Source of the DNA: Paracyclopina nana
Taxonomy: Eukaryota > Arthropoda > Copepoda > Cyclopoida > Cyclopettidae
Assembly: GCA_019096065.1 (NCBI GenBank)
Contig: JAGUCH010000005.1
Location: 992,001-1,056,000 of the forward strand
DNA: 64,000 nt
Direction: 5' to 3'
The position numbers were made by a program, and so were the translations under genes. A model generated the notes under the pieces. It was not told the origin of the DNA. It worked only from the letters and a program-made list of their open reading frames with translations, and ran no database searches. Shown piece by piece: positions 14,888 to 58,022 of this stretch. Within the stretch, counting starts at the first letter, position 1, and each line of letters begins with the position of its first letter.

Positions 14888-15442
14888 TAAATTGAAGAAG
14901 GAACTCTCAAGTTGCCAACTGTACAATAATGGATATTATTTCTTCACATGTGACGAAAAAAAGTCATTATTGTACGGTAGATGCGAGCGCACGCCAAATC
15001 TCAGCAAAATACAGGGATTTTCACTTCACTGCCGTATGTAGTGAACCCACCGCCAAGTTGACAAAAATGCTGATTTCTGTAGCCGCTCAAATCATCCGAG
15101 TCGGTTAAGCATCACCTTGGACACCTAACTAGCTAAGTAGCTTCAAGGTTATTGAGCAGAATCCAGTTCTTGCGTGACTCGACTTGTGCAAAAGTAGCCA
15201 GGGAAAGTCGATCACGTTGATGAAGAAGATCCAAGGCTACCTACTACAGTAGCTCATTTCCACGTGATTATCTGCTAGTGCTACAACAACACTAACAAAG
15301 GTCAAAAACAGCCAAGTTGGCCTTCAATAAGCAGGAGCTCTAAGGAGCTCGAAAAACTTTTGATAGTGTCAAATGGGACATTTTCTTTGTAGCATAGACA
15401 CCTACGTCAAGTCCAGAAAAAGAGCTTTTAGCGTAAAAATAC

Positions 15443-15900
15443 AGGTTGCGGCTCCAAAATTGCAACAACCGCGCTACAGCCGATTCGGCCCATTTGTTTA
15501 CTTCTTCAGAGCAGCCCGCTGCTTGCATTTTTGGTGCCGCATTCTGTATTTATAAACTATAGCACAGGTTGCGGCTCCGAAATTGCAACAACCGCGCTTC
15601 AGCCGATTCGGCCCATTTGTTTACTTCTTCAGAGCAGCCCGCTGCTTGCATTTTTGGTGCCGCATTCTGTATTGATAAACTATAGCACAGGTTGCGGCTC
15701 CGAAATTGCAACAACCGCGCTACTGCCGATTCGGCCCATTTGTTTACTTCTTCAGAGCAGCCCGCTGCTTGCATTTTTGGTGCCACATTCTGTATTTATA
15801 AACTATAGCACAGGTTGCGGCTCCGAAATTGCAACAACCGCGCTTCAGCCGATTCGGCCCATTTGTTTACTTCTTCAGAGCAGCCCGCTGCAAGCTGCTT
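15443..15900. repeat. 123-bp minisatellite, four copies
   Basis: Units begin with AGGTTGCGGCTCC at 15,443, 15,566, 15,689 and 15,812, exactly 123 bp apart; the fourth is cut short. Copies are nearly identical apart from single-base changes (for example CGCTTCAG or CGCTACTG). Because 123 is a multiple of three, the array is open in one frame on each strand (132 codons plus, 78 codons minus). I treat these frames as by-products of the period, since no start context, signal or flanking exon supports a gene. Confidence 0.9.
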
Positions 15901-19906: not shown

Positions 19907-19954
19907 GGCGCGCTTCTGATCACAAATATTTTGCTTCTCCAATCCTGTATTCAC

Positions 19955-20005
19955 ATGTATTTTCAGTCTGCGTAGATGTATCCCAGCTGTATTTATACTG
20001 GTGGC
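19955..20005 (-). promoter_or_regulatory. Tob core promoter (TATA box)
   Basis: On the minus strand CCAGTATAAATACAGC lies about 30 bases before ACGCAGACTG, a plausible start near 19,966. This would leave a ~60-base leader before the ATG. Spacing fits a TATA promoter; the initiator is not a consensus TCAGT. Confidence 0.55.
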
Positions 20006-20009
20006 TTCT

Positions 20010-23000
20010 TCTTCTTCAGAAAGACTTGAGTGAAGACGACAATCGACAAGAGTAGTTGTTGTTGTGGGAGTTAAGGCAAAATTTACTATAACTGCAGAGG
20101 TGTCACAATCATGATCCTGCTTTTTTGGAAAACAAAGTATTTATGAAGTTATGGGAGAATGTATTTGGGATTCGGTCACCTTTTTCGTTCAGTTGCTCAG
20201 CTTTGGAGATGGAGCTGTCATTTGGGAGCTGGTTGCACAATTTTCGTAGTAGTAGTGAGTCCTACAACGTCTTCCGAGCGAGTGAGAGCTTTGAAAGAGA
20301 GAGCGAAACTTCGTTGACGTAGAAGTCGAGGCCGAGGCCGACTACGATATAAAGCGCGAGCTAGTACACTAGTAGCTCCGTAGAGCAGCTTTTCAGGCTG
20401 CTACTACTACAGACTACGATTTTATGTCATACTGCTGTCTGTTTCTGCTCCTGCTTTCACTTTTGCTGTATACTTCGCTGCTGTGAAAGCAGCTGCTGCC
20501 ACTGCAGCACGAGAGAGCCCTGTCAAACGGGTCCCGCGAAATGAGGCCTCTCCAGGGCCTGACAGCTGAGGCCGATCTGCTGGGGACACTGAACTTGGAA
20601 CCAAGTCCCGCCTCCTTGCCGCCTTTCTAATCCTCTATAGTCGTACAAGGAAGCTAGGCATTCTGCTGCCAGCTTTTGACAGAGCTGGCCCTGCTTCTAC
20701 AGCAGCGGCTCTGAAGCTAGCTGCCTGCCAGCCTACTTCTCGAGGGCAGGGTAGGCCTACCCTGCTGCTCTCAGGCCTGCTTACAGGGTTCTGCAAATAG
20801 ACTTTATTATAAATAAGTATAGTAGTTTTTATTTTTTAAGAATAATTGCTATGCGAGATTTGGCAGGTTCAAGCTGCGTGGAATCTATGCGCGCGCTTTT
20901 GTTTCGCAGAACGCTGCTTGATTTTAAAACAGCCAATCAGGAGATCCGGTCGATTTTTCCGCCAATCATAACACACGCTCGCGTCCGAGCCGGTACGGCG
21001 CCCGCGTGATGACCTGCAAATAAGAGAAATTAGCTGTCAAAACTGCAAAGAACCCTGTATTAAGGAACTACTTCACTGTACAATGAATACGTATACAGAT
21101 ACAGATAAGAGCTATTATAGAGTTTTTAAACCCAAAATACCTGAGGATGTCTCTTTTACAAGTTCTGACAGATGCTGGTATGCATAATTGTGGTACATAT
21201 TAGATAAACTACCACATATTGGCCTTGATGGGAAGTGCATCATATCCACCACCAAAGATTTTGCAATTTGGGCTGAATCTCTTGGCATCGTCAGCAGGGC
21301 TGAAAATCCATTTTCCATCTCTAGCAACCAAAATTGCCAGCCCAGCAAAGCATTAGCATTTGCCTTGAGGTGGCATCTTGAGTTCATCTCTTCAATTTAC
21401 CTTCTTCCATACGTATCTAGCTGCTACATATGGCATGGAAATATTCGATGCTAGAGAGCTGCTGCAGTATTTTCTTAGTATATGTATCTTACCACTTAAT
21501 GTCTACTCCCAGGTTTAGCTGGATTATAGCCTATTTTTAAAGCAATTTCTTCATATCTGATTAGATTATCATAAATAGCACCAAATGTGTGCATACATGC
21601 ATGCTGCGTCCGCGTGTGGTAAAAATGCGATAATTTCGTCTTAGTAATCACATAATACAAGCTTCATGGTTGCTTCACTCTACTTAAGGATCTGTTCACC
21701 TGAACCAAAAAAAGCAAAGTGTTTTTAGGAAAAAAGACTAATATAAAAAGTAAATTAGAACCAGTTTTCATTGACTTTTCACAATTGATTTCACCAAAGC
21801 AATAGTAATTTTTTATACATTTTATCAAGCAATTTCCATTTTGTTTTCAATAATATTTTTGCAAAATGTGTAGACCAAATGAGCACTTAGTAAATTCGAA
21901 ATGCCTGGAAAGCGTATTGAAGGCTTCCTTTTTTAACAGTTCAAGCCGCGCAGTTCACATGACAGATATGCTTGCGTAAGCCTTACATTTGTTGGGCTAA
22001 GGCCAACTTTTGCTTTCCATATCAACAAGCATCAGCTTGCAAAGCTGAAAAAAATTACTGCGCATCAATGACGACAAAAAATTGAGGAGTTCGCGGCCTG
22101 CATTTTTCAGCTTTAGCTTCTGAGCCTATTTACTGCACTTTTTACCTTTTCTTACGAATATGTCGTCATTAAATGCTCCTTTTTTGCTCTCATGTCTGGT
22201 CTTGGTTGTAGCTTTTTTGCTCCTATTTTTTGCTGTTCTCCATGTCTAGCAGGATACGTACAAATAAAGAATATGTGAGAATGCAACAGAGGACAATTCA
22301 TAATAATGGTAAGAAAAAGTGACTTAATCTAGCTAATAGCCCATTTTTTGAGGTGTGTGTATACTACGTTCCACTGCATTGCAGTACAATATCATGTGAG
22401 AGAACCAGCTACTGTTAAACTTTTTGGCTCAGAATTCATATTGTTTCCTATAAACAATCCATATTATTTATAAGTAACGAGTGAATTCAAGAATTGAGTC
22501 GTAATCCGCGAAAAAATATGATACTTTTAGTAGCTTTTTAGAAAGCAGTGAGCAGCAAAAATGAGAAAAGTAAAAGGTGAAACGTTCTAAGCCTAAAATA
22601 GCATTGAATAATTTAAAATGTATATTTGGCTGCTAAAAAGGCTGCCAAGGCCACATGAGCTAAGCATAGAAAAGGCTCTCTTATTTGCCGTTTTAGAAAG
22701 CCCTTGGAATACTACACATAATAATTGCTGAATACAGCCAAAGCTGGCTAGCTTTTCTTCGATTCAGTTGCATAACCAGAACAACAGCTTTGTTATACCA
22801 TACTATACCAGTATTCATGCAGCTGCAGGAAATGGCCTGTTTTTGAAGTGCGATATGTGGGTAATTAAGTGGGTTTCCATAAGAGCACTTTTTCATGCTG
22901 TGAAGTAACTAGCATTCACGCACAGCTTACGTACAAGAATACACTGTAAAAGAAGTGTAGGCGTTGCAGTAGGCATGAGAGCTTATCAAAAAGTAATAGA

Positions 23001-28866: not shown

Positions 28867-30814
28867 ATGGGACAAAGTGAAAGCAGCTTTGGCAGTCGAC
28901 TGAGGTCACCCTCAGTGACTCCTTCCACGACACCTTCAAGGCAGCATTTGTCACCAGCCCATCTTCACCATCCTCCAATGGCCTCCAGCTCAGCTGGTGG
29001 AGGCTTGCTGGATGTGCCAAAGCCCAAGAAGGCCAATTCCAGTCGGAGGTCCAGTGATTTGGGTGATGACATCATACGAATGAGGAATCGCCAACGTAGC
29101 CCTTCACCACATAAATTGGCCTTGCCCAAAATGGACAATGTTCGCAGAAGATTGTCAGCTGATGAAAACTGTGGTGCTTCTTCAACTGTTGCTGGTGCCA
29201 TTTCGCGGAAGAATATCAAGCAGCAGGAGATTTTCGTCAATTTGCTCCTGCAGGACGAATTTAAGGGAGCCAAATCGAAGCAAAGGAGGAAATCGAAGGA
29301 TGCTTCAGCTGCCTTGCCATTAATGCATCTTCCAGCAGGGCTTATGGGCTCTAAAAGAAGCAGAATGCCTGTAAAATTAGAAGATTACTTCACCGTGCCT
29401 GAGGTATTATTAGATTCCTTGCAGTTAAGCTAAAACAAGGAAATTTGCTAGCTACAATTTTTTAGCTAGTGTGGCTAGAAAAAATCATCTTGGGAAAAAA
29501 AACTACACACATGCTCCTTGTTTTGGTTAGTTGAAACACGAAATAATGCCCACTAATAATGTTACGTAATCAACACACTTAGCATTTTATGATGATGGTT
29601 TTTAATTGCTATATTGGAATAATGATTTGCACTCACGCAATTCATACGTAATTCGTGTAATTTTTGGCTCGTGCCAAACTAGTATTACAAATTAAGCTTG
29701 ACAATAAGCCAGTCAAAATTCACTTTATTTTAACTGAAAAAACGCATATTACATAATTATGAGATGTTGAAAATAGTCATCATCAAACACTTTTGTTTTG
29801 AAATTAGAGTTTAAAATATAAGTTAAATATTGCTCTGAGGGTGCGTAAAAAATCCTGCTACACTTTCAGATTCCTGCAGAGGAGATCTTCAAACCATTCC
29901 AAGAGTCTGATGAAGAGGATGGAGATGATGCCACCAAAGCTCTGTTTCCAGGCCCATCAAGTTTGAATGCGAGGAGATCTCGTAGAAGAGCCACTTCCAT
30001 TAATCCCACGGTGGAAACGCAAAGGCAAATAGAGATGGCTGTGAAGAAGAGCAAAAGAAATCACCTCTTGGTGCCCACGGTGTTCAAATACCACTTCAAA
30101 AGCAGCAGCGTTGGAAGTGCTCTGAAGAATCCCCCTACACATGTCTACCTCGCAGGCTCGATGACCAATTGGCGAAGTCGCGAAATGGCAACGTTGAAAG
30201 ACGAGAGCTACTTCGTCTCCATCATTGATTGTCTGCCTGGCAAGTATTACTACAAATTCTGGGTGGATGGCAATTGGTGCCACGACGAGAGCCAGCCTCT
30301 CATCATCTCCAAGGATGAAGTGAAGGCCAACGTGATGACGGTGCGGATGGAAGATAGGGAAGTGTTTGAGGCTCTTGCATGCGACAGCTTTGCTACCAAA
30401 AAGCAGGAAGCTTGCAAATTTTCCTCAGTCGATGGTTGGAGCCAAGAGGAGCCCACTTATGAAGATATCGGACCGAGGCAATACAATCCGCCCTTTTTGC
30501 CACCGCATTTGTCGCAGAACAATGTACTCAATAAGTTGAGCATCACCAAAGCGGAACCGTGTTTGCTGCCAGAGCCTACATCACATGTCACCATGCATCA
30601 TTTGTATGCGCAGTCCATCAAGGAAAATCTCCTTGTGCTTGCAACAACCACGAGGTTCAAAAGAAATGTGTCACAATCATCTACTACAAGCCTATTGCCG
30701 ACTAACATGATTATTGTGATTGAAAATTATGAAGTAGCTCAAATAAATTTTAGCAATGTGAGAGACAGGCACATGAAAGATAGGGAAATGTTCAATGCTT
30801 TTGCATGCGACTAG
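28867..30814 (+). CDS. PRKAB: AMP-activated protein kinase beta subunit (C-terminus frameshifted)
   Basis: The beta subunit scaffolds AMPK and binds glycogen. There are two exons, 28,867-29,403 and 29,870-30,814, joined in phase 0 (GAG|GTATTA … TTTCAG|ATT), giving 493 aa as read. It starts MGQ, compatible with N-myristoylation. A long Ser/Arg-rich region extends to about residue 245. The carbohydrate-binding module follows (about 248-345), with VYLAGSMTNW, YKFWVDGNW and W280, K308, W315 and N333 at the usual sugar-contact positions. The ASC domain (about 374-445) includes PPFLPPHL and LLPEPTSHVTMHHLYA. After residue 443 the expected KxxVTTLLYKPI-type end is out of frame: it can be read from about 30,664 to a stop at 30,705 in another frame. 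The current frame runs on to 30,814. This may be a real divergence, a pseudogene or a sequence error. Confidence 0.85.
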
Positions 30815-34429: not shown

Positions 34430-35065
34430 TGCTGAGAAAATTGAGAAACTGAGCATTCAAATGAGCTAATTGAGGTTCATTCAGCTTAGGTGATTGGCGA
34501 GTCTCAGATTTCAGCTGAGCTAGCATAGAAGCTGAGCATTGAGCTGAGTATTTTAGAAGCTGAGAATTCAGCTGATCTAAAAGAGAAGCTGAGAATTCAG
34601 CTGAGCTAGAATTGAAGCTGAGAATTCAGCTGAACTTGTATAGAAGCTGAGAATTCAGCTGATAAAATTGGGAAGCTGAGAATTCAGCTGATAAAATTGG
34701 GAAACTGAGCATTCAGCTGAGCTAGTATTGAAGCTAATAATTCAGCTAATGTAAAAGAGAAACTGAGAATTCAGCTGTTAAAATTGGGAAACTGAGAATT
34801 CAGCTGTTAAAATTGGGAAACTAAGAATGTAGCTGAGCTAGTATAGAAGCTAAGAATTCAGCTGATAAAATTGGGAAACTGAGCGATATGAGCAAGTATT
34901 GAAGCTGAGAATTCAGCTATTTAAAAGAGACACTAAGATTTCGGCTGATAAAATTTGGAAACTGAGAATATAGCTGAGCTATTTAAGGAGTATTAAACTT
35001 AGCTAACAGAAAAACTTAGAGTTATGCTGAGCCAACTGAGAAACATTCAGCTGAGCTAGATGAAA
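34430..35065. repeat. ~36-bp minisatellite (GAAGCTGAGAATTCAGCTGA)
   Basis: About 16 to 18 diverged units repeat GAAGCTGAGAATTCAGCTGA with spacers such as GCTAGTATA or TAAAATTGG. Unit length varies around 36 bp. Most units contain the palindromes GAATTC and CAGCTG. Confidence 0.85.
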
Positions 35066-38700: not shown

Positions 38701-41700
38701 CTAACGCTTGTCATGAGGCAATAATTTTTCTCCTTTCCTTGAGGAGTTTTTCGTGCATTTTCCTAAGGAGTTTGGGGCGTACATGAACAGGACATTTGTA
38801 ATACTGGCAAAAAGCGATGCATGAAATATGAGCTTAAAAGGAAGCCTTTCTTTTTTCCAGATATGGAAGCAGAATGCAGTGATGACGTCATGAAGCTGCG
38901 CGTTAAATTCAATGCCACTTTTTCGGGCCTGATTTACTCCGCAGGTAATAAAAAGTGATTCTTCATATGCTACCAAATAGTTTATTTCGGTAAAGTGCAT
39001 ACTATTATGCAATGTCAAACTGCAATTACCTGTAGATTAGACCGTGAAACAAATATGTCCATCAGCAGTCAAACAATTACGACCACTGCTGCACAGAAGT
39101 TGATCTATAGAAAATAAGTGGAAAAACAGCCCCATTAAAGATCATTTTTTCCCACTCTGCAAAAGAAGTAGGTTAATGTGTCTCCTCGTGTTTGATCTTG
39201 ACTTCAATTAATTTGGAAAATCGATTAAAAACCTAGCCAAGTTTGACACTAAAGAAGAAGTGTGAAAAATTCGCTGAGGCAGAAAAAAGCCATTAAACGA
39301 GATTCCCTTGCACGTGCACTAATTGTGTACAGGCTGTCCCTCATTTCTCGCAGCAAAATCAGCTGCTACAGAATGAGGGATCGAGCTCCAAGTCGAGCAG
39401 AGAGGCTCTTTTAAAATATCCGATTATGTGAAAAATTATATAGGCCTGAAAATTGTTGGCTCGGTTTGAGTGACATTTGGTTAGCTCCGAAAATGGTGGG
39501 ACAACCTGCATAAATAACGTTTTTGTGTGTACAGCGCGTAAGAAGTGCACACTTTCAAGGGTCATAATGGCAAAACGATCACATAACGATTTCCTCTCTG
39601 ATTTTTTAGGCTACTCCTACGACTCGGATTGCATCTATATTAACGGGACTGGAAGTGAAGAGTACGAGTTTTACATCCAGCTTAATCGGTGCGGAACTTT
39701 AGGGGGGTCAGACCACAACAAGAAACGGGATGCCAATTTCAAAAACACCGAACCAACTGTAAGTCACTCTCATGATAATGTTGTAATTATGCTGACATCA
39801 AATGTGAGATCACTCACTGTGCAGTTTTTATGGACCGTTCATATATCAGCTTTTCATAAAAGAAGGTTATATCAGCTGAAACACCAGTTAAGTACACTTT
39901 TCTGAACTAGTTGAGCCCAATACCGAGTCGGCGAGTTTAAGGCAAAATCAGAAAGAAATGTTCAATATTTTTGTTGGTATTCTTGTATAATCATGCTAAA
40001 ATTAATTTAGTTGCCTCATAATAATTATTTCTGCTGAATGTTGATGAGTTTTTTAAAGTTATATGCAGGTATGAGCTATGACTTATAAAGTGGACTTAAA
40101 TATTGACCTGTTACTTTGAAAAGAAAACTTCAGCAGAAGTTTAAAATTTCTATCCATTTTACCTAGTTTGTGTCATCAATTGTAAATTATAGTATATTTG
40201 AATACATGAACGGGACATTTTAACCCCCCTCTGCATATAATCATACGGATTTGCTCTGGTGCAAGTTGACCCCACCTCGACTTTGACCTTCACCAAAGAC
40301 TTTTGCATTTTTATAATATGATTATATAGAGTGAAAGTGTGGTTTGCTATTTTTTTTGCAGAAAAACTTCATGTGGAACACAGTGACAATTCAGTATAAC
40401 CCACTCATAGAAGAGGAATGGGATGAGCACTTCAAAGTCACTTGTGAATATGGCTACGATTTCTGGAAAACGGTCACATTTCCATTTCTTGATGTTGAGT
40501 AAGGCTTGCTTTTTTCACGAATCTTTGCCTAATTTTTATGATACTATATGAATAATATACCATTTTGACAACTTTTTCAAGCACGCAGCACAAAAAACGA
40601 ACGACCTTAAAAATGCAACTGATTTCCAATCTTCCTTATAACACTGATTTTCTCACGAGATTCGACAATAGCAGCATCTTCTTCTTCCTCTGCTTCGTTT
40701 GGTGGACGAATTCCCATGGCACAAAAATGTGGACTCTGATGCTCTGGAACCTTCACAAAAGTAGCCACTGCTGTCATGACACAAAAGGAACTACTCCATA
40801 AATCATTTCCCTCCTTTCTTTGGCAAAAAAGGGCTCTAGATCAGTTACTGGAACAAATTGCTTTAATGTCAAACGTAACAGGCAAAAAAAAAGTTCAGCC
40901 ACTGTAATTGTTTTAATTAATGCCTACATTTCTATTTTCCACTCTCTATCAGAGCCATTTGTCAAATTCTGGCACCATCCTTTGATTATTGCTACTACAA
41001 CGACTTTTTCACGTACTTTAGTAATTCTCATGCACTCTGCACTCTGATTGACAATTGCTCGTGATCCCCAACCAGAAATTTTCCTAAGTTTTCTGAAAGT
41101 TATTGTAACGTGTTAGCACTCCTTCGTTTTACCCAGGTTGAGTTTATGTCATTATGTAACATTAACTTCCATACCACCTAAGTAAAAAAATTGGAAACAA
41201 TCGAATGTGACAAGGAAAATGGGTGTTTTCGATTTTACCTAGGTATCAAGGCAGTTAATGTTACATAATGACTAAAACTCAATGTTGATAAAACGTGTAA
41301 GTTTTACTGAGAGTTTTTTTGGCGTATGAGGGCTCAGAATTTCTGGTTGGGGAGTAGTAATGAACGTTTTTCTCCAAATCACTCAGTTCTGCTTCATTTG
41401 ATGTGATACATCTCGTTATAGAGTAAACACAGCTGATCCCGTCCATTTCACGCTCACTCCGCCCGAATGTCACATGGAGATCAGAAATGGCTATGGCACC
41501 ACAGGATCACGTGTGACTGGACCAGTCCACGTGGGTGACCCTTTGACACTTCTCATTCTTATGAGAAGCCAATGGGGTGAGTTCTAATAAAGGATGAGCC
41601 GGCCTGAAAAAATGAGCTCTTTTTTAGCGGATTATTATTTTTTGCGGCCCATCCTCTACGTTTTGCAAACTTGGTCCAACTTTTATATTCTATAATAATT

Positions 41701-44029
41701 TATAAAGACATCTCTAAAATTGCACTTTTTTATGATGAGTTCATTTGAAAAAAAACTTTTTTTCTACCCTTAAATTACGTTTTTGTTTGGTTTCCAATTT
41801 TATTATTACCTTTTACATTCTATTGTAATTTAAAGATAAATTCACAATTGCACTTTTTATGCTGTGTTCATCTAAGAAAAAACAATTTTCTACACTTAAA
41901 TTACGTTTTCGTTTAGTTTCCAATTTTGTTATTACCTTTTACATTCTATTATAATTTAAAGACATCTTTAAAACTGCACTTTTTATGCTGTGTTCACCTA
42001 AGAAAAAACATTGCACTTTTTAAGCTGCGTTCACCTAAGAATTTTATTTTCCCTACCCTTAAATTGCGTTTCCGTTAAGTTTCCAATTTTATGATTACCG
42101 GGCATTTCAGCATGCAGTGCATGATTTTTTGGAAGCAAATGGCATTATTCGCCTGATTGGATCAACAACAAACCGCGATTGATTGCGTGGTACTAAGTGG
42201 TGAAATTAAGCTGTCATCATCTATTTTCAGACGGATTCGATGTAGTCGTCAACGACTGCTACGCTCATAATGGTGCCAACAAGAAGATCCAGCTGATTGA
42301 TCACCACGGCTGTCCCGTGGACGACAAGTTGATATCTCGCTTTCAAGGCACCTGGGGAACCACGAATGACATGTATGACACACTGGTCTACGCGCATATG
42401 AAGACGTTTCGTTTCACCGGAACTCCCGCGCTCTACATTGAATGTGACATTCGAATGTGTCACGGAAGATGTCCGGTAAAAATGCAATTACTACTTTTTC
42501 GATTCCAAAAAATTATGAGGCAATTTTCGCCGCGGCCTCGGGGAAGAAATATCTCTTTTTAAAATCTTTTTTAAAGGCGCGTAGCTGATGATACACTTGA
42601 TTAGTTTTCTGCGAGCTTTACAGTTACAGCAATGAAATTAGCCGAAAAAATCCGCCATCATCTCGTACTTTTTTAATTGTTCATTGGCAAATCAACTATG
42701 TAGTTTTCTTTGCAGTGATTGCAAGTGCCAATGTTTTTCCGAGCATTTTTTAAAATACAAAAAAATGGGAATTCGAACATCTTCACCACTTTTTAAATAT
42801 GGCTCTTCGCACATTTGTTAGGGTGGAGCTATTGGTGGTGGCAATTTGTCAGCAATGATGATATTTAGTAGGCCTTGATATCAAGTGGTGAGAGAATGCC
42901 TTGCGACATCTTCGAGTAACAAAGGTTAATTTTCCTATCAATTATGATATGACAGCTTTAGGACCAGTGTGCTGCTGCTGCTGCTGCTCTTTTGTCACAT
43001 TTCATGATTGGCATGAACTATTCTGCAATACGTTTTTTTTTTCCTCCATCCCAGACTCAATCTTGCAATTGGAGAAATCCGAAATCATCATCAGCCACTG
43101 TGCCCTCACCAAGCAGGAGGAAAAGAGATTTGCTCGAGGAATCTGACAGCAGAATCAGACCCGAAGATTTGCTGGCACTCAATAAGAGTCTGTCTGAATC
43201 TGTGAGCCTTTTTCAAGCCATCCATGTTGTCCAGTCTAATGAGGATGAAGTGAAGCAGAACGCAACGACCGCAGGTAATAAAAAGCTCATCCATATCCAT
43301 TATTTTCCACATCCTTGAAAGTCTTTCGGGCTTATGCAATATGTACACTTTTCACTATGTAACAACGCCCAGTCCCCAAAGGCAAAGAGCAATTTACTTA
43401 TTTATATTAAAGCAAACATGCAGCCCAAGAAGTTGCTGATTTGGCCGCTGCGAGAAGTGGCGCTTTTGCTTATTGAACGGGTTAAAAATGGAAAAAGTTA
43501 AATTATTACTTGAAACTTTGAAAAGCTAGTGTATATTCAAGACTCAGCCTGCTGCATTTTTTGTTTGTGATAACAACTAGTTCATAATTTTTGAACTTAT
43601 TTTGGCCGCTACAATTGAGTGGCGCTGCGTGTTTAGAAATGTAAACAAATCATGACATCTATAGCGTTAAAGGCGCTACTCGTAGTATTTTACTAATTTG
43701 TATGCCTTTCAGAGCCCTACTTTGATTTGGATACCGACTCAGTTTGCCTTGGGTCTGTGGTCTTTGCTGGAGTCATAGGCTCCCTGGCCTTTGTGGCCTT
43801 GATGTCAAGCCTGATTGTGTCTGTGCTATGTTTACGAATGCGGAGGTTCAAAGATACTGAGGCCACTGTGGATGCAAGGCTAGACGCCAAAAATATCCTG
43901 GTGCGAAGGGGAGGCTTCAATCCAGGATCGGGAACGAATTCAGTGGCCAGCCTCGAATCAAGCTTGAGGCCGAGGTCATCTATGGTCAAATCTGAATATG
44001 TCCACTCCGCGCAAGCCAGAATCCCTTGA
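35761..44029 (+). CDS. ZP-domain transmembrane protein of the apical extracellular matrix
   Basis: Eleven exons: 35761-36105, 36862-36933, 37100-37690, 38254-38377, 38861-38944, 39610-39758, 40362-40498, 41422-41576, 42231-42475, 43055-43274, 43713-44029. They join in frame to 812 aa. Residues 1-22 are a signal peptide (MAVMAQWKLAFFMSCLLCST). A Ser/Pro/Asn-rich region follows to about 375. The ZP module runs from about 380 (CSDDVMKLRVKFNATFSGLI) to 634 (CDIRMCHGRCP), with the regular cysteines. A furin-type site RRKR is at 655-658, a transmembrane helix at about 721-745, and the cytoplasmic tail is short and basic. Arthropod proteins of this layout (dusky, miniature, trynity and relatives) polymerise at the apical surface of epidermis under the cuticle. 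I cannot assign an orthologue. CCTCTTTACAG precedes the start codon, so the 5' leader may be spliced. Confidence 0.9.
39328..39513. mobile_element. GTCCCAC-ended MITE in a ZP-gene intron
   Basis: The 186-bp element lies in intron 5. It starts TACAGGCTGTCCCTCATTT and ends AAATGGTGGGACAACCTGCATAA, which are inverted copies. Relatives lie at 24,400, 28,268 and perhaps 25,880. No open frame is present. Confidence 0.65.
41066..41360. mobile_element. Foldback element in a ZP-gene intron
   Basis: The element lies in intron 7. Its ends are CCCCAACCAGAAATT and AATTTCTGGTTGGGG. Inner inverted matches include GAGTTTatGTCATTATGTAACATTAACT against its complement (41,140-41,170 and 41,249-41,283). It is about 295 bp with a short loop and no coding capacity. 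Confidence 0.75.
41640..42075. repeat. ~128-bp tandem repeat in a ZP-gene intron
   Basis: TCTACCCTTAAATTACG-type starts occur at about 41,762, 41,890 and 42,050, each followed by TTTCCAATTTT.TTATTACC and TTTACATTCTAT.TAATTTAAAGA. Three to four partial, diverged units lie in intron 8. Confidence 0.7.
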
Positions 44030-46042: not shown

Positions 46043-47337
46043 TTAGTATCCAGCTGGCAATGTAAGCTTGATTTCTTTCACAAAAATGTCCAATTTGAAT
46101 CCAGTCCTCAATTTGACTCCATTGAAAACACTGATGACATCCAACCTTAATTTATCAGTTGCAGAGGAAACTGCAGTAACGGCTGTTGTCGCACCAGACA
46201 GGTTAATGTGCACTGCACACACTTGCTCAGTTGCCATCAAGAAGCTGATTTCAGCTTTCGTGGCGCCTTTGAAAAATGTGAATTTGCCCTCCTTCAACTT
46301 GTCAACAGTTGTGTCCGTAGCTGATCTGACGATGATGCGTTTGACCTCTCGAGGGCCTCCAGCGAAGGTCATTTCGATGTATTTGACCATGTCACCAGCA
46401 TTGCTCCGGAACGGCTGACAGTGACATAATTGGATAATCAAATTGTCACAACACACAAGATGAATGCAAATTTAAAAATAGACTTACATTTTGATTGACA
46501 TAACTTTTCTGGAATGCCAAATCCAACAGAGCCTTGCTGGTGTCATTGTTGATGTTTGAGGTTGCCACTTTGCCCAACAATTCACACTGGAGGATTCGAT
46601 CTTCTCCCTCACATTTTGTGTCTGACAAGATTCCCACCGTGCCTATGTAGGTATTCTGCACCGCAGTGCAATTCCTGTAAGTTATCACGTCTGGTGAAAA
46701 GGCTGAGCAGTCTGTTGCACTTAACGTGTTGTAGTCTTGGTCACATGGAGGTTCCAGAGCATCTGGCCTTGGAACTGTCAGTGAGCCACCCACTTGCTGA
46801 ATTAGGGGAAAAATGCTTTTAGAAATTATAAAAAGATAGTGCACTAAAACAACATTGTATACCAAACTTCTACTTTGATGTCAGGTGAAAAAAGGGAAAG
46901 TATAACTTTTCCTAAACCCAGAAAACCCTTTTAGAGCTTAGAAAGCTTACAGTTTTCACGTAGTAGACAACTTGCATATCTTGACCATATCCAATCGTGC
47001 GATTGACTCCGGAGTTTTCGTTGACCAAATGGCATTCGGTGCCATCAGCTTCAGCTTTGATGTAGAATGCATCGCACTCGTTGCTAGAAATGGCACACCT
47101 ATTCGCACACACCTGAATAATTGTGTCTTCGCCATCCACATCGATGTCTCCAATATCCAGATGCTAAAAAATATCCAATAATATGATGAATTATGAAAAT
47201 CATAATGGTGTTACCTGATGATCTGTGCCATCGTTCCAGACATTTCTGTAGCCAGTGAATTTGAACTTGGACACAGTTATGTCCTGAGCCAAAATGGTGG
47301 CAGCCCAGGTGAAAATTAAGGCAATCCGGATCTTCAT
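46043..47337 (-). CDS. Secreted protein with PAN/apple-like N-terminal module
   Basis: Four exons, all joined in phase 0: 47215-47337, 46951-47163, 46488-46796, 46043-46414. Together they encode 338 aa. MKIRIALIFTWAATILAQ is a clear signal peptide. Residues ~19-112 carry the Cys pattern C-x3-C…C-x-A-F…C-x-L (VCANRCAISSNECDAFYIK, ECHLVNENSG) seen in PAN/apple modules; this match is by pattern only. The rest has four further cysteines at 129-182, four N-x-S/T sites and an even, beta-strand-like C-terminal domain ending TLPAGY that I cannot name. AATAAA lies just after the stop at about 46,033. A broken copy of the last exon sits downstream at 45,655. Confidence 0.75.
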
Positions 47338-47491: not shown

Positions 47492-50400
47492 TTATTGTTG
47501 CCTCAACATTTTGTTCTTCATGTAAGGGTCTTCAAGGTCGTCAAACGGCAAACGAGTTTCCATATCTTGAGGCTTCAAATATGGAGGTTCTCGACCAACA
47601 TACGGCATTGGATTACTATCCTGCCCAGGATTGTTCGATTCTGATTCTGGACATGGGCCAGCATTGCAATCTTCCCTTTGCTCCTCCAGATCTTTTCCAC
47701 CACAAAATGCAAACTTGTCCTCCTTGGCATTGGCTTTGTTGGAGTTTTGGCAAGATCGTTTCCGAAGCACTTGAGCATTTCCACAAGACACTGGGCAATG
47801 CGTCCAACTCGTCCAATCACTCCACCCCACTATAGAAAAAAACAGCAACTTATAATTGTAATAAAGCATAAATTGATTGATTTTAAATATACCAGGTGGG
47901 CAAAAGCTGTCACATTTCATTTCCTCCGTTTTGGCCACTTTGACCATTCTCCCTTCGGAGTTGTAAATGAAGCTTTTTCTAATCCGGACTCCTCGTTTGC
48001 CACATGGTCCCTGGCAGTCTCCCCATTCGCTCCAGAATCCAGCATACATCAAAGGATCATCACATTTGGGAGGTTGGTTGGGATCCTTGAGCTTTTCAGG
48101 CGAATAGCAGGGGGCTTTCTCCTCACCATCCTTGTCATGGCAGTCCTGGCCTCCCCAAAGGCCATAATAATTATTGTCTTTTGGCATCCTGCTTCGAACC
48201 TTTTGAGTTGTGATCACTCTTTCTCTCGTCAATCCTTTTTTGATGCATCCAGGGCACATTCGTTCGTTCCAAACCTCCCACTCAGCCCACACACAATCCA
48301 CAGGGCAATAGTTGATCATTTTCTTGTCAGCTCGAGATTTCTCGCTCATATTCTTGACCTCTGCATGATCCACGTGGTAGCAAATGATTGTGTTGCTCTT
48401 TTCACCGCGACACGGTTTGCCACCAAATGCGGCTTCCTGGGCCACATTTCTGTAGCGAGATTGGCGACCTTCTCCAGGATTGCCGCAGGTGACTGAACAC
48501 GTGTTCCAAGGGCCCCATTCGGTATACTCGCAATTGACAGGGCAAGGCACGACATCCACGCATTCCCTGTATTCTTCAAAAGGGCCCTCGCAGTCTGCAC
48601 CTCCATTTTGTGGAATTGGATTGGCACAATATCGACGCCTTATTTGCTTGCCACCTTCTCCACAATCCACGTTGCATTCCTGCCATGGACCCCATTCGGT
48701 GAGACCACCAGCAACTGAAGGACAATAACATCAAGAAATTGCTTTTAAAAATGCCTTCATATCAGCTTATTTAACCTGGGCAATATTTTTCTTCGCACTT
48801 CACAAATCTTGTCCATTCTCCGTGGCATTCAAGTGCCAACGGGGTACCCTGCTCAATTGGCTCGTCAGTCCAGCTGTCAACGCATTCTCTCGTCAGGATC
48901 TTCCTACCTACTCCACAAGTGACACTGCAAGGTGCATCTGTCCAAGCTGTCCATTCCGGATCTGTGAAGAAATGATGGACTCCTACAAAATAGCTCTTCA
49001 CCCTTTTTTCGTTAATCTCTGACCTGGGCAAGGACAAGGATTGCAGTCTTTGGTTTCGATGTAAAGCTCACGATTCTCCCTCTTCTTTGGGCAAGGCTCA
49101 CTGCCCGGATTGCTTGAATCAGTGCAGGTTCTTTTTCTTACAGTCTTTCCTCCCCCGCAAGTGACTGTGCACGTTTCCCAACTTGACCATTCACTGAACT
49201 TGTAATCAGCTAGAATACGAAATGCTCATTAAATTAGGGCACATAATATGTTATAAGGCGGATGATTTACTAGGGCACTCCTTCTGGTTGCAATTTCTCA
49301 CTTCTTCCTTGAAAATTGAATATTTTCCACCCTTGTAGTTTCCATTGCAAGTCTCCTGCCCAGTTTTAACAGGACAATCTCGACTCCTTCTTTGCGTTCC
49401 GGAATCGCACGTTTTGGTACATTCGCTCCATGGTGTCCAATCACCCCACTGTGCAGGCGGATTTTTCTTGCAGCAGAATCTCACTTTGAAATCTTTGCAT
49501 CTGGTGCCGAACATCTCATTGTTCTTATTCAAGCATAGTGTTCCGAACCTTTAAAGTTAGAGCAACATCTGGTATTACTTCAAAAACAGATAGCAAAATG
49601 AAGAGCTATTTCTCTTTTGGACAACACTTTAGAAAGAAAAGTTAAGAGAGACTGAAAAATTTTGGGTTGACTACCTTGGGTGAAATTTCAGTGAGCTCGG
49701 AGTCAGTAACGTTACTTCAAATTAAAGTGGAAGTGCATCTCGTTTGGATAACGCTTTAGCATGAAAAGTGCTGCCAGGCTGGGCATTTTGAGATATTCCT
49801 CTAAATTGCGAGGAGTCTGTCACGTTACTTCAAAATAGATAGTGCTAAGAGGAAATTAACCTCTTTTGGATAACGCTTTAGCAAGAAAAGTGCTGCCAGA
49901 CTGGACATTTTGAGATATACCTATCCTAAATTGCGAGGAGTCTGTCACGTTACTTCAAAATAGATAGTGTAAAGAGGAAATTAACCTCTTTTGGATAACG
50001 CTTTAGCATGAAAAGTGCTGCCAGACTGGACATTTGGAGAATACCTATCCTAAATTGCGTGGAGTCTGTCACGTTACTTCAAAATAGATAGTGGTAAGAG
50101 GAAGTGCATCTCTTTTGGATAACGCTTTAGCATAAAAAGTGCTGCCAGGCTGGACATTTTGAGATATTCCTCTAAATTGCGAGGAGTCTGTCACATTACT
50201 TCAAAATAGATAGTGCTAAGAGGAAATTAACCTCTTTTGGATAACGCTTTAGCAAGAAAAGTGTTGCCAGTTAGGACATTCTGATACTCACGTGGGTGTG
50301 ATTTTAGTGAATTTTGAGTCCGTCTCGTGCCATGGTGTGTCATCATCCACTGTTCTAACGTCAATGTACATCGAGTCAACCACACTGCTTCCACACACGT

Positions 50401-51972
50401 GGTTCCTCAAGGCTGGAGTCCTGACAATTGTACCACGATCCTCAGCGTCCCAAGTGCCATTATCAGGTGTGGTGGTGTCCAAAAAAGGCTTCCACTCGCA
50501 CTCGTCAAAAAGTGTGGTAACACTTGGTGTCACGATTTTAATGGCATTGTCATCGCGCGCTCTGTTATTCATCTCGTTGCAGCCATACAAGCATCTGCAT
50601 TTATGCCTCATTTTGTAATCCCTGCACTTCACCTTTTTGTGAAACCAATAATGAGGCGGTGGAGGCGGTGGAAGTTCAGCCTTGTTTGTGCAAGTAATGA
50701 ACTCTTCGTCAGTGCTATAGTCAACATTCTTCTCTTTGGTCACTTCTAAATTCATGGTGGTTAGAAATTCCGGAAAGCCTCGATTTTTCTTGGCGCAGAA
50801 TCTGAAAGCGGCGGTTTCATTGAAATTGAGCACCCACATCAAATTCTGCTTTGCATTCTCGGTATCTCCAGCTAAGCAAGGCTCATCAATGTCGAACCAC
50901 TCGGTGAACAGATGCACTATTTAACGGGAAAAAAACACGTCAACTGGAAGTCAATAGAAATTCGTTAAGCATATACCATCATCATTGAAAAGTTGGCTGC
51001 AACTGCCCAATCCGATATGTGCAGTGACAACATCGGAGGCTTTTCCTTTATCCTTGTAAAACTCGCAAATATTGTCGTAGGTTTTTGCAAGCCCATTCAT
51101 AGCAATGCACACAGTTTTGTTGCAAACTTCATTCTGGCTGCACGCACTGCAATCACGTGGCACCGTTCCCCACTCAGCATCATGCAAATTGCCATCAACT
51201 AGGAGAAATCAGTTTAAATGTCCACAATTATGGTCGAATAAGGACAAAATTACTGGCATCAGCACAGTCTCCCTTTTGGATGTGCAGAATGCGAAAAAAC
51301 AGGCCGTTTTCCATATGCTGCACAAGCTTGCACATTGAGGAAAATCTCCAGGTTCTGGCATCAATAAGGGTGCAAATTGGGCGACCACAGCCCTCTGGCT
51401 CATTAGGGTCAATTTTCTCCTGATATGGATGCCTGTTGATTTTCCGTTGCAAATCCTTGGGTGGATTTTGTGAACCCTAGACGAAAAAATCCATGCAGTG
51501 CAGGAATCCGGATTTTCTGTACCTCAACAAAAGCCTTGATATTTTTACTTGTGGGCCTTCCCCGTCAATTTCGGGAACAGCAACTTCACTAATTATGGTA
51601 ACTATTTCATTTTTGCTTGGTGGCTTTTCCTGAGCCTCTGATTCCAGCTGATTGAATCCAGTCGTTGGACTCCAGCCAGCTTGACCAGCACCCTTTTTAC
51701 TTGCAGCTCTTCTATCTAATATATTAGTGATGGTAAGTTAACCGTTACTGGCATTAAAAACGATTGTATTACTCCTTATGTAATGATCCAGATCAAAATC
51801 GCTCCCTCTGGACGAGAGGAAAGCTTGATCCTCAATTCTAACCTCCATAAACCCACTAGCCAAGTAAGGCATTGACACCAGCACTGTAAACAATCATCTG
51901 TATCATGTACTTTTTTATATATAATTAGGAATTTTTTGTACCTGAGCATATCAAAGCTAGCTTCAGTTGCAT
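47492..51972 (-). CDS. Secreted Kazal-like / WxxW / multi-TSP1 matrix protein 1
   Basis: Eleven exons: 51942-51972, 51773-51883, 51549-51715, 51254-51476, 50977-51198, 50292-50916, 49271-49548, 49024-49209, 48776-48961, 47893-48714, 47492-47829. They join in frame to 1062 aa. The signal peptide ends near ASG (residue 20). Two Kazal-like modules follow (104-177 with CGRPICTLIDARTWRFSSMC; 178-251 with CNKTVCIAMNGLAKTYDNIC). A WxxW domain of the CILP/mucin type runs from about 252 (TEWFDIDEP) to about 490 (CKDFKVRFCC), with a PPPPPP insert. About eight TSP1 modules follow, for example WGDWTPWSECTKTCDSGTQR, WSSWETCTVTCGGG and WSDWTSWTHCPVSCGN; one or two are degenerate. It is probably an extracellular matrix protein. 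The stop TAA overlaps AATAAA. It is a paralogue of the next gene. Confidence 0.85.
49560..50291. repeat. ~124-bp minisatellite inside a WxxW intron
   Basis: GCGAGGAGTCTGTCACGTTACTTCAAAATAGATAG-type starts lie at about 49,810, 49,935, 50,059 and 50,181, with two diverged units before them. Each unit also has CTCTTTTGGATAACGCTTTAGCA. The array fills nearly the whole 743-bp intron 6, which splits the WxxW domain; other introns of this gene are 55-75 bp. Confidence 0.85.
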
Positions 51973-51991
51973 TTTGCGCAGACGAAGCCGA

Positions 51992-52034
51992 ACACTGATT
52001 AATTAGCTGAAGTTGTTCTGTTTATATTTATAGC
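51992..52034 (-). promoter_or_regulatory. Core promoter of the 1062-aa matrix gene
   Basis: On the minus strand GGGCTATAAATATAAAC is followed about 35 bases later by TAATCAGTGTTCGG, a TATA plus TCAGT initiator pair. The predicted leader to the ATG at 51,972 is about 25 bases. Confidence 0.65.
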
Positions 52035-52331
52035 CCTCGTTTCAATGATTGATAGGTAGAAGTAGTACATGTGTTTTAAAAATAGGCTATTTTTGGGAGA
52101 TACAATACAAGTAGTATGACGTCACACGAGCTTCATGTTAAGCTGGAGTGGCTTTTTTAAAGAGCTGAAATGGCTTTCTTTGCAAGCTATACAAAAGCTT
52201 CAGCTTTCAAGCCAAAAATGGTGTGATTCTTGCATAAGTCCCAAGGAAAGTAACTTTTAAAAGCTCTTGCCAAGAAAGTCTTTCCATCTTTCCATAGACG
52301 TTCTATTTTTATTGGCCAACAAATTATTAAA

Positions 52332-55300
52332 TTAATATTCTACATATTCGTTGTCTGATTCAGTTTCTTCTTCCTCATTTTCTGGTTCCTCTTTTTCACC
52401 TTCCTCAATGTTTTCTTCCTCTTCGATGATTTCATCTTCTTCCCCGGTTTCATCCTCGTTACTATCTTCAGCAGCTTCAACATCAGCTTCTTCTTCCACT
52501 GAGGATTCCTCTTCGGTTGGTGGCATCAACTCACCATGAGGAGAGTTCACCTCATAAGTCTCTTCTGGAGGAGCTTCAGTCACCATCATACCTTCAGAGC
52601 TGCTTCCACAAGGACCCAAGTCGCATTTTTCAATTTGTTCATCCTGCTTTCCACCATTTCCCACTACTTTGGTTCTCTTGAACTTTCCAACTCCACAAGT
52701 CACTGAGCAGGATGACCAGGCACCCCAAAAGTCTAAATTAACCACTCTTAAGAATTACATATGAAAAATGCTAATATTTTACCATCTTTGGTCAAAAGGA
52801 CTTTGGGCGTGCACTCTTCAGTTTCGACCAAATCCTGTCTTTTGCAAGGCTCGATGTAGCAGTGTCTCCTTCTAAGTCTCGTTCCTTTTTGCTTTGCCCC
52901 ATCATTGAATTTACGAGTACCACCAAATGATCTATCAACGCAATCTTTCCATTCACCCCAAGGCCCATGAGCAGCATTCGTATCCGTGCATCTCTCCTTT
53001 TGCTCAGCGCCAGAGCAAGGCTCTTCTTCTGATACAGTGCCAAAGACTTCCTTGCCATTTTCATCCTTGCATTTCTGGCCAAGAGCATTGGGAAATTGCT
53101 TGACGGTCCTATACCTATCTTTGACTCCGGTCAGCTTGGCTTTGTTTGAGCATTCACAGCCAGCCAGGTTCCAGGGTTCCCAGGGGCTAAGCTGACAGTC
53201 AACTGAAAGTATTGTTTTACCTTGTGTTATTCATGTATGGCAGCTAGGTGAAAGCAGGTAATATTACTTGGACACTCTTTGATGCAATTGGTCTGCTTGT
53301 CATCTTTTTCCTTTGAGCAGAAGGTGCAAGCTTCACTGTCCTCCAATGGAGGACAGCCCTTCAAATTTTCCAAGCCTTTTGTAGTGACATGCCTGAATCG
53401 AGTGCGAGACGCTGAAGTCTTGTCTGTGCCCAAGGGCACGCAGGTTAAGCTGCAGGGACCCCATTCTCCCCATTCGCTGACGTCACAGGATGCTGCAAAA
53501 ATGCTTGAAAATTAGCCTGCTCCAACAGGGCAAACTGGGCAATTACGTGGACAATTTTTGATTTCTTCACAGGGAGCTTCCTCTTTGGCCTTTCCAAGAG
53601 ATTTGCAATCCTTGCCTGTTCCTGCTGGTTTGGGGAAAGCACATTCACGAGTTCTTCGCTTGGTTCTACTTCCACATCTACAGGTTGTCCATTCGGACCA
53701 AGCAGAGTATCCCCCGTCAACTGGGCAGGGCTTCGGTTCAGGTGTGCAGGGTACGGAGTTTGAGAGTGGATTTACGGTCTTGTCTGTTTGGCAAAGGCTT
53801 TTAGCGACAATGCTACCACTCACTGTATCTTGGCACGTTCTGGTGCGAGTTTTCAATGCAGGTGAGCAAGTCCCAGAGCATTCGGACCATTCGGACCAAA
53901 TTGACAGGGCATACTCTGGATTGTTTGATTTTTAATACTACAATATTTGGTTAGGTGACAATTGTCATATGTTCACCTTTGCATGCTGTGGCAGTGCATG
54001 CCTTTCTTTCGACGTCTTGCGACTTCTCACATTTTTGCTCCTTGGAATTACACGTGCGTTTCCACCGAATAATTTCCCCTTGGCCACACGAAACTGAACA
54101 AGTGGACCATGGCATCCATGTTGATTCAGTTGCCTGTGAGCCAGCTTAAAAATAATAAAACCTACTTGAAAGTCTTCAAAAAAACACTGGCTATAGTACC
54201 TTGGCAGGGCTTGTGACATGGCATTTTATCCTCCAGGGCTATTTGATCTATGCAACAAAATTAGCATTTTTCTAAATATGCGCGCTCAAATTAGACTAGT
54301 TATTATTACCACACTGCTTTCTCTTTCCCCGACATTTCCGAGTCCTGACTTGGAAGTTTTCAGAGTTGCATTCTCCCTGGCATTGCGACCATTTACCCCA
54401 AGGGCTGGTGGCCATTTTGGTTTTGGAGCAGCACAGACGAAACTTGTAATCTGGGCAAGCTTTGTTATTGTTGTTTCGCCCATCACAGTAAACACCAAAG
54501 CTGTGAGAAACAATATAAAAGAGTCTAGCCCAGAAATGGGTTTAACTCACAAAGGTGACACTTTGTTGAGGAAGAATCCAGTCTGGTACCAAGGTGTCAT
54601 TTCTCCGTCCACAGTTCTCGCATCAATGTACAACGTTTGGGATTTCTCCAAATTGCACACATTTCGCTTGCTCCGTGAGTGGCTCGTAATTGTGTTAATA
54701 TCACTTTTGCCATATGTTGGATTGCTACGCGAAAACACAGGAATTTTGAAGGCTTAATCAAAATCTCGATTTTTCTGCAGAATTCACCTAAGAAATCCTC
54801 CCCATCTGCAGTCCTCGAAAAGTTCCCTCTTGAGGGGCATATCAACAAAAACATCAGTCTCGGTGATGGGCCTGCCAACAACCTTGAAGTTGGCTTTCTT
54901 GCTCAAGACAGCAAAGGAGGCCGGGGTGCCCCACATGTTTTCACAGCAGTATCGAATCTTCCAATCCCTGCAGGTCATGTTTTTCTCACTGCCAGGGATG
55001 TTCCAGGCGTAGGGCACCTTGAGCTCATCCTCGTTCTCAGCATTGACGCAGGTGAACTGATGCGGACTTTTGTCATATTTCTCAGCAGTCTTGGCCTGGC
55101 CCTCCAGAGTCCTGAACTCCACTGGGTAGTGGATGTAATTCATGGGGCAGGATCTGTGCACGTTTTTCCTGCTCAATCCAGTCAAGTAGTTGAACACACT
55201 TTTCACAGACTCTCGTTCAGTCTCATCAGACGGATCGTCCAAGTCGAACCATTCGGTATGTTGGCAATCTCATGAAGATAAAAAACAAATTTCTACAAAT

Positions 55301-56158
55301 CAAGTCTAGAATATGTGAAATTGTTTTTTTTTACTTGAGAAGAGAGATTTGCAATCTCCAAGGGAAATGGCGACGACTTTCCGCTTTCGCATTCCTGCTC
55401 TTCTCAGGTGTAAATAAGTGACAGCCTCGCACACATTATCGAACGTTTTGGCATGCCCATCATCGTTGACGCAAATTGGCATGCCTTTGCAGTATTCAAG
55501 CCCGTCGCAATACGAGCACTTATTTTCTCCTTTGCCCCACCCACGTCGGGCATTTTTGACCAACGCTCGCTTATTGCCCCAAACTAGCATCAATAATTAA
55601 AATTACTCGTTTCTATCCAAGATACGCTAATTCGCGCAGCTTACTCAGCGTTTCGCAGTTGCCACTTTGAATCTCGAAAATCTGCCTGTATTTGCTGTTT
55701 TCATTGGCCCACGCCACGAAATCGCACAGGCTGTCAAATGACCTCACACTTTGGTCCACCGTGGTGCAAATGGGGTGGCCACAGGGCTTTCGGCTTGCAC
55801 TGCGGCTCATGATTTCAGGCGGGCCCGTTTTGGGGTCTTTGCTCACGGCCTTTTTGTACTCGTCTAACTTGCTAGGCGTGAGTTTTGTCCGGTGCGATTT
55901 TACGAGCGGGTTATCGATGACCGGACGATACGTCTCGGCTTTCCCAGTTAATATGGAAACTGGCAAGTCATTGGGCAGCCCAAGGGATCCAGGCATTCGT
56001 TTTCGCATGTACACATCCTCGAAAGCCTTGCTGAAAGCCTCAAACAAATCTCGTGATGGGCTCTGTTGCCTCTGCCTCGATTTCTTCGCGGCGGCTGCGT
56101 AAGTCTCTAGCTGGTGCTGATGCAAAAGCAGGAGAACAAAAAAGAGGATTGTCGACAT
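52332..56158 (-). CDS. Secreted Kazal-like / WxxW / multi-TSP1 matrix protein 2
   Basis: Eleven exons: 55645-56158, 55335-55583, 54788-55268, 54551-54724, 54310-54500, 54200-54247, 53977-54144, 53547-53915, 53268-53492, 52783-53202, 52332-52732. They join in frame to 1079 aa. The first in-frame ATG (56,158) gives the signal peptide MSTILFFVLLLLHQHQLETY. Kazal-like modules lie at about 128-171 (CGHPICTTVDQSVRSFDSLC) and 200-254 (GMPICVNDDGHAKTFDNVC). The WxxW domain starts near 258 (TEWFDLDDPSDETERES), has CRDWKIRYCC and ends near 500 with CPDYKFRLCC; RSKR, a furin-type site, lies inside it. About eight TSP1 modules follow (for example WMPWSTCSVSCGQG, WSEWTTCRCGSR, WGAWSSCSVTCGVG). The last ~90 residues are extremely Glu-rich. 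AATAAA follows at about 52,310. It lies head-to-tail with its paralogue. Confidence 0.85.
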
Positions 56159-56810: not shown

Positions 56811-58022
56811 ATGAAGGTCCTTGCACTCGCTGTGCTAACTCTGGCTGTTGCCTCCAACGCTGACCAGTATTGGTACAACTTCAAGACCACGTGGTCATTC
56901 TTGCCATTGACAGGATTCTACGACAAACCTCGCACTGAAGCCGAAGCAAAGGCCGAAGGATGGAGACAAGTCTCGAATGATTGCTCCGAGGGTGCAACGT
57001 AAGATCGTATTTGAAAAAGTTTTTGCCAAATTAGGAAAAATGCACTTAATTGCAGCTTTTTTGGCAACCGCTACGCTCCACCTGAGGATAATCCCGAACT
57101 GATCATCATTTATGACGTCAATGGCTTCATCGCTGGCATGCACTCTGTGGTAGCCAAGAAGTTCACTGCCAATGATGCTTACTGGAGCTTCACCAAGTCC
57201 AGCTGGTACAGAGATGACGTCGTTTTTGGCGAAGACGTCTTCCTCACGACTGCTTACTTTGTCGACCCCGAGGTGATTTGCGGAGCTGGCAGAACTCAAA
57301 ATGACTTTGACGTTGATGGAACTGGCTACGTTTTGCACTTCCAAAATGGCCCAGCAGTGACTGACCTCTTAACAGCCCCGAATAACTTGGAAGAGGCTGA
57401 GGCTGATGTAAGCTCTTCTTTGGTTTTCTTGCACTATCCCACTTTCGCCCTAGTTGACCTCCAGAGATGAACAACTTTTTCCCTGATTCTGTAGACTTTG
57501 CGAGGCTCTATTGAACTTTGGTGTGGCTGGCCTTTTGAGCGAGTTACTCTGCCAAATACTACATTAAAAAGCCGGCTGCTGTTGGCTTCAGTAAGCCTAT
57601 ACCAAAGTTCAAATGTAATTAAGGGCCTATATTTATAACAGTATCTTTTGCCAAGCTGGATTGAGAAGTATTACTTTTTTTCGCAGTCTTTCTGGTTCAA
57701 ACACAAGTGCTTCGCTAACATGGGCCGTCACTACTTCAACTTGAACTACGACGTCAATGCGCCTTGCGATGACCTTGCACCTATCCAAGTTGTCTTCAGT
57801 GATGGCGTCTTGAATGCCTTCGTTTGGCAGCACATCGCTCCCCTCAAAGGAGGTGGCGATAGGTGGGAAAGTGTCAACAGTTTGGCCATCACTGGCATCG
57901 TCGAATCTGCCCCCAATTGCTTGTATGACTTGGTCGAATCACCCGGAGTCACCACCATGCATGTATACCTCAGAAATTACGAGACTCTCTGCATTATCGA
58001 TAAGGAGGCAGACAAACATTAA
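56811..58022 (+). CDS. Secreted protein of unrecognised family, 291 aa
   Basis: Three exons (56811-56998, 57056-57407, 57687-58022) join in phases 2 and 0. Residues 1-17 are a signal peptide (MKVLALAVLTLAVASNA). The mature part is rich in Tyr, Trp, Phe and Asp and has six cysteines. Features include WYNFKTTWSFLPLTGFYDKP, ELIIIYDVNGFIAGMHSVV, GTGYVLHFQNGP and WFKHKCFANMGRHYFNLNYD. No transmembrane helix or known catalytic motif is visible. AATAAA lies at 58,036, just after the stop. The promoter and tight leader suggest a strongly and simply expressed secreted product. I do not assign a function. Confidence 0.85.

Follow-up and report, generated by a model that had tools for sequence, protein, structure and literature searches.

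Two adjacent genes of Paracyclopina nana, designated here A and B, were found to be tandem paralogues whose products share one modular order: two Kazal-like modules, two CysD (WxxW-family) domains and about eight TSP1 modules. The Kazal-like/WxxW/TSP1 order and the tandem relationship, both proposed in the first-pass annotation of this DNA, are borne out, with the correction that the CysD domain is present twice in each protein and the case for the Kazal-like modules is weaker than had been stated. We consider it fairly probable that an old tandem duplication of a single gene gave rise to A and B, and that they encode secreted structural proteins, rich in disulfides, of an arthropod extracellular matrix or gel. 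Each of the modules is of a known kind, and the combination is the new part.

Results

Gene structure of the tandem pair

The window, that is, the whole analysed stretch of 64,000 nucleotides, contains gene A at 52332..56158 (minus strand; 11 exons, 1079 aa; ATG at 56158, stop at 52332) and gene B at 47492..51972 (minus strand; 11 exons, 1062 aa; reading from 51972 to 47492). Both are open frames without internal stops, and the two neighboring minus-strand genes of 1062 and 1079 aa proposed earlier are matched exactly in coordinates, strand and length. Splice sites were picked by eye from the minus-strand reading and the splice signals, with the frame kept. All 20 introns obey the GT-AG rule, and 19 of them are 50-72 bp long (50-66 bp in gene A, 55-72 bp for the short introns of gene B). 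Intron 6 of gene B, at 743 bp, is approximately ten times longer than the others because it contains an array of a 122-bp tandem repeat (49739-50284, 4.4 copies); a genome search with this array returned this intron only, together with two short partial matches elsewhere. Further tandem repeats of the window are located at 4015-5341 (240 bp), 15441-15891 (123 bp), 34506-34981 (29/58/87/116 bp) and 41680-42010 (126 bp).

Phase-1 introns predominate in both genes (8 of 10 in A and 8 of 10 in B) and are the only kind inside the TSP1 arrays (6/6 in A, 4/4 in B), which agrees with the earlier observation that most introns around the TSP1 modules are of this phase. The coding regions of A and B are separated by 359 bp. 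An AATAAA signal (52308..52313, minus strand) lies 19 nt past the stop of gene A, and a TATAAA box (52027..52032, minus strand), a putative element of B's own promoter, lies 60 nt 5' of the ATG of gene B; taken as sequence signals, the two fit separate transcription units.

The N-termini of both proteins are plausible signal peptides when judged by eye from the sequence, as the first-pass annotation had it. Past residue 40, the best 19-residue Kyte-Doolittle mean is 0.48 in A and 0.63 in B, which leaves no strongly hydrophobic stretch. Given such N-termini and no other strongly hydrophobic segment, both proteins, which contain 68 (A) and 71 (B) cysteines, are predicted to be secreted.

Two secreted-looking neighbors, whose exons were likewise joined by eye, flank the pair: a downstream gene at 46446-47337 (minus strand), with a PAN/apple-like cysteine pattern by eye and no Pfam match, and a divergent upstream gene at 56811-58019 (plus strand), also with no Pfam match. 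Elsewhere in the window, a Tob-like gene of the BTG family (18218-20140, minus strand), whose product has long stretches rich in Q, P and S, coincides with the local GC maximum of 57%. An exon of an AMPK beta subunit is located at 29849-30811 (plus strand), and its CBM and interaction domains were recognised. Neither Rfam nor ARAGORN (bacterial code setting) gave a match within the window.

TSP1 arrays

The C-terminal half of each protein is an array of eight TSP1 modules with borders set by eye: aa 502-988 of A (52608..54415, minus strand; TSP1_spondin E 4.8e-26, TSP_1 E 3.8e-19) and aa 490-1011 of B (47648..49460, minus strand; TSP_1 E 2.3e-47). In scans of the whole proteins, Pfam TSP_1 (cut-off 21.6 bits) recognised 6 stretches in A (69.0 bits) and 7 in B (159.4 bits), and TSP1_spondin, which is the best-scoring family for whole A, recognised 7 in each. 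The identity of these modules, as read from the profiles, is certain. Scanned singly, one module of each protein was not recognised as TSP1, module 7 in A and one among modules 5-7 in B. As one module per protein thus escapes recognition on its own, the earlier count of about eight is the right wording, with eight in each by inspection and 6-7 picked up by Pfam.

A has 8 intact W..W motifs and B has 11 (overlaps counted); the C-x2/3-S/T-C-G motif occurs twice in A and four times in B. All of these motifs lie within TSP1 modules. In TSP1 proteins, the tryptophans of WxxW motifs are reported to undergo C-mannosylation, which aids TSP1 folding (PMC8433626, PMC6954052). The array is basic in A (net charge +13) and slightly acidic in B (-4). 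Gene A additionally encodes an acidic C-terminal tail (52335..52607, minus strand), in which 41 of 91 residues are D or E (net charge -40) and which has no Pfam match. In a search of the genome for TSP1, the densest cluster among the 94 matches listed (150 of 189 candidates scored) was located at G000:C1:9123127-9127329 and comprised 23 of them.

CysD domains

Between the Kazal-like modules and the TSP1 array, the first-pass annotation had placed one WxxW domain per protein; two were found in each. In A they occupy aa 256-363 (54943..55266, minus strand) and aa 408-497 (54428..54810, minus strand, spanning two introns), and in B aa 253-358 (50597..50914, minus strand) and aa 391-486 (49470..50500, minus strand, spanning intron 6). 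When the CysD region was excised as a pair, the Pfam model PF13330 (Mucin2_WxxW, cut-off 22.4 bits) matched two stretches in each protein, with 39.1 bits in A and 44.6 bits in B, so that the Pfam check proposed for the WxxW assignment came out in its favor and both pairs belong to the family by score. Of the domains excised singly, the second is above the cut-off in both proteins (A, E 8.4e-07, 30.0 bits; B, E 2.3e-09, 38.3 bits), and the first is below it in both while matching positions 2-88 of the 88 of the model (A, E 0.0015, 19.6 bits; B, E 0.011, 16.9 bits). Scanned whole, B gave PF13330 with 36.3 bits (best stretch 393-486), and A did not list the model at all. Since the whole-A scan missed PF13330, the proteins were also scanned in pieces, and the absence of other models from the listings is to be read with the same caution.

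The residues at the WxxW position of the four copies are HTEW, FTEW, WGGF and WKPF. The motif is intact in none of them, the first W being gone from the first domain of each protein and the second W from the second domain. Judged by profile, the four copies are therefore members of the family that lack its name-giving motif. Searched against PDB, a profile built from just the four window domains had MUC5AC as its sole match (E 0.21); once two CysD domains from elsewhere in the genome were added, structures of MUC5B, MUC5AC and MUC2 were matched with a best E of 7.1e-08, a value that leans on the added rows. Fold prediction for the first CysD domain was unsuccessful (pLDDT 33).

A six-frame search of the genome with PF13330 gave only two matches, G000:C3:1006456-1006722 (L001) and G000:C4:2098073-2098330 (L002), which sit in other cysteine-rich proteins of repeated units (..PDCxDRTVYC..). 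In the single frame scanned of L002:1-2256, CysD was the only Pfam family above its cut-off.

Kazal-like modules

The first Kazal-like module (aa 126-168 of A, 55655..55783; aa 133-174 of B, 51264..51389; both minus strand) has four cysteines, and the second (aa 194-249 of A, 55351..55518; aa 194-244 of B, 50999..51151; both minus strand) has six. With E up to 10, the Pfam Kazal models PF00050 and PF07648 matched neither the four modules scanned apart nor whole A and B, and none of the 43 matches of a genome search with Kazal_2 falls in the window. In profile comparison with the Kazal domains of the genome, the four modules together scored better than all shuffles (0 of 200 as good). Module 2 is similar to these domains by profile; module 1, which is not recognised as Kazal alone, is related to module 2. 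A modest fold prediction for module 2 of A gave the order strand-strand-helix-strand. The termite Kazal inhibitor 2n17 was the top PDB match both by profile (E 0.065) and in Foldseek (E 1.3, probability 0.41). The earlier assignment of two Kazal-like modules per protein is suggested by a kinship of profiles, direct for module 2 and through module 2 for module 1, and fails as a Pfam match. Drawn from profile comparison and a modest fold prediction, this kinship is weaker than stated.

The reactive loop of Kazal domains lies between the second and third cysteines, and their fifth cysteine closes the first disulfide. The comparison set of 20 aligned Kazal domains of this genome has a loop of 7 residues in 18 cases and 8 in the other 2, and retains the fifth cysteine in all 20, whereas the four modules of the window have a loop of 4-5 residues and lack the fifth cysteine without exception. 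The six-cysteine pattern with a C2-x7-C3 inhibitory loop is accordingly seen in neither module, the first having four cysteines and the second six in another spacing. An extra CxxC ahead of the core of module 2 may resemble the follistatin hairpin. With a shortened loop and one cysteine fewer, the Kazal-like modules are probably structural.

History of the pair

In an alignment of 970 residues, A and B are 32% identical. Identical residues number 18/42 in Kazal-like module 1, 21/50 in module 2, 31/103 and 35/89 in the first and second CysD domains, 159/454 in the TSP1 array and 18/98 in the N-terminal linker. Among the 40,320 possible pairings of the TSP1 modules of A with those of B, the order-preserving one ranks 2nd (513.0, vs 516.5 for the best and a mean of 333.9), and the best one exchanges modules 1 and 7 but is otherwise the same. 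Of the 10 introns of A, 6 have a counterpart in B in position and phase: one before Kazal-like module 2, one before the first CysD domain (with a 2-residue offset), a phase-2 intron within the second CysD domain, and three within the TSP1 array, where the final one is offset by 4 residues.

Both proteins have the layout 2+2+8 and are collinear. As they match module for module, the architecture is older than the duplication, and most likely, on these alignments, a 2+2+8 ancestor was duplicated whole. Phase-1 introns could in principle permit modules to be gained or lost, as had been suggested; no sign of such an event is seen between A and B. Open frames of approximately 3.2 kb maintained at 32% identity suggest that both copies have been held by selection.

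No third copy was detected in the genome (91,952,342 bases in 10 contigs): among the best candidates scored, all 7 matches to the N-terminal half of A (E <= 0.01) and 9 of the 10 matches to that of B (E <= 10) fall in A or B. A match to B's N-terminal half on contig C9 (E 0.257), with a stop inside, was taken as chance. By tblastn, no relatives turned up in viral contigs, searched with the N-terminal part of A, or in bacterial and archaeal contigs, a result that says nothing about other arthropods. The genome itself gave 80 matches to Chitin_bind_4, a domain characteristic of arthropods, and 7 matches in a globin search.

Discussion

Comparison with known systems

The CysD family (PF13330) links A and B to the gel-forming mucins MUC2, MUC5AC and MUC5B. 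In contrast to these, neither protein has a listed von Willebrand D, C8 or other mucin model, PTS repeats were not seen by eye, and the WxxW motif is broken in all four copies. In CILP, a WxxW-family domain adjoins TSP1, and A and B resemble CILP1 and CILP2 in having TSP1 and in their predicted secretion. CILP2 is described as having TSP1 followed by an Ig C2 domain and by a C-terminal half that furin releases (PMC12839030); A and B differ by approximately eight TSP1 modules and by the Kazal-like modules, and no Ig or CILP model was listed for them. Membership in CILP is ruled out on these grounds, and the CILP-type kinship suggested in the first-pass annotation is not supported.

The TSP1 arrays are close to TSP1_spondin and in this respect of the spondin/papilin type. 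Two sources describe insect F-spondin and papilin homologues with inhibitor-type modules alongside TSP1 (PMC3278429; similarly PMC5309989). However, proteins of this type carry Kunitz, reeler, spondin_N or ADAM_spacer domains, none of which was listed for A or B. To the Kazal/follistatin type, module 2 is connected by its profile and its predicted strand-strand-helix-strand order, and it is set apart by the changed cysteine spacing, the missing fifth cysteine and the lack of a Pfam match. The remark that the order could not be matched to a described family agrees with the open-licence full texts, in the available portions of which no description of a Kazal-like/WxxW(CysD)/TSP1 order was found; public proteomes may well contain the architecture without a name.

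Proposed function of A and B

In the simplest model, each protein would be a secreted rod whose head associates, and would act as a structural component of a matrix or gel. The rod, stiff and C-mannosylated, would consist of the eight TSP1 modules and bind partners. Molecules would self-associate weakly through the paired CysD domains, and the Kazal-like pair, having lost the geometry of protease inhibitors, would serve as rigid spacers or binding modules; calcium or basic proteins of the matrix may be bound by the acidic tail of A. For CysD domains, roles in adhesion in mucin assembly and possibly also in hydrogels are reported (PMC11765562). The loss of WxxW from all copies counts against a matrix or gel role, as mucin-like self-association may have been lost with it.

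Other readings of the pair were weighed against this model. The proteins could be soluble regulators of signalling or guidance cues of a CILP- or spondin-like kind, which would bind receptors or growth factors through the TSP1 modules and be targeted by their N-terminal half. TSP1_spondin is indeed the best family for A, and CILP1 is reported to bind TGF-beta1 via a W(S/G)xW motif (PMC12839030), but no reeler, spondin_N, Ig or protease model was listed, although HMMER filters can miss weak matches, and we regard this role as unlikely. A role as secreted protease inhibitors or regulators, with the Kazal-like modules acting as inhibitors of serine proteases and the remainder anchoring the protein to the matrix, would be in line with the resemblance in profile between module 2 and the Kazal domains of the genome and with the first rank of 2n17 in both structure searches; it is quite improbable in view of the C2-C3 loop of 4-5 rather than 7-8 residues, the fifth cysteine gone from all four modules and the lack of a Pfam Kazal match. 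Finally, as the splice sites were picked by eye, neighboring genes could have been merged in the models, the N-terminal half then being transcribed separately from the TSP1 array. Against such an artefact, the end of the second CysD domain is joined to the start of the TSP1 array inside a single exon in both A (exon 5) and B (exon 7), and the phase-2 intron inside that domain is common to the two genes, which makes it very improbable indeed.

The structural matrix or gel protein remains the preferred reading, and a more specific form of it is put forward tentatively, as a possibility that we would not expect to hold: A and B may represent an undescribed arthropod matrix family of the formula Kazal-like(2)-CysD(2)-TSP1(8), whose strongly diverged tandem paralogues build one heteromeric apical gel or cuticle-associated network in which A pairs with B. 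The pairing of A, with its basic array and acidic tail, with B, with its slightly acidic array, is speculation.

Significance

The pair is in other respects an ordinary gene duplication with an unusual combination of modules, and the general view of extracellular protein function is unaffected by it. A and B provide a clean case of a 12-module architecture held module for module through a long divergence. If the proposed reading is true, the union of mucin-type CysD domains with a TSP1 array would bring gel-forming and adhesive modules together in one arthropod protein, and A and B would be candidates for a component of an arthropod matrix yet to be characterised.
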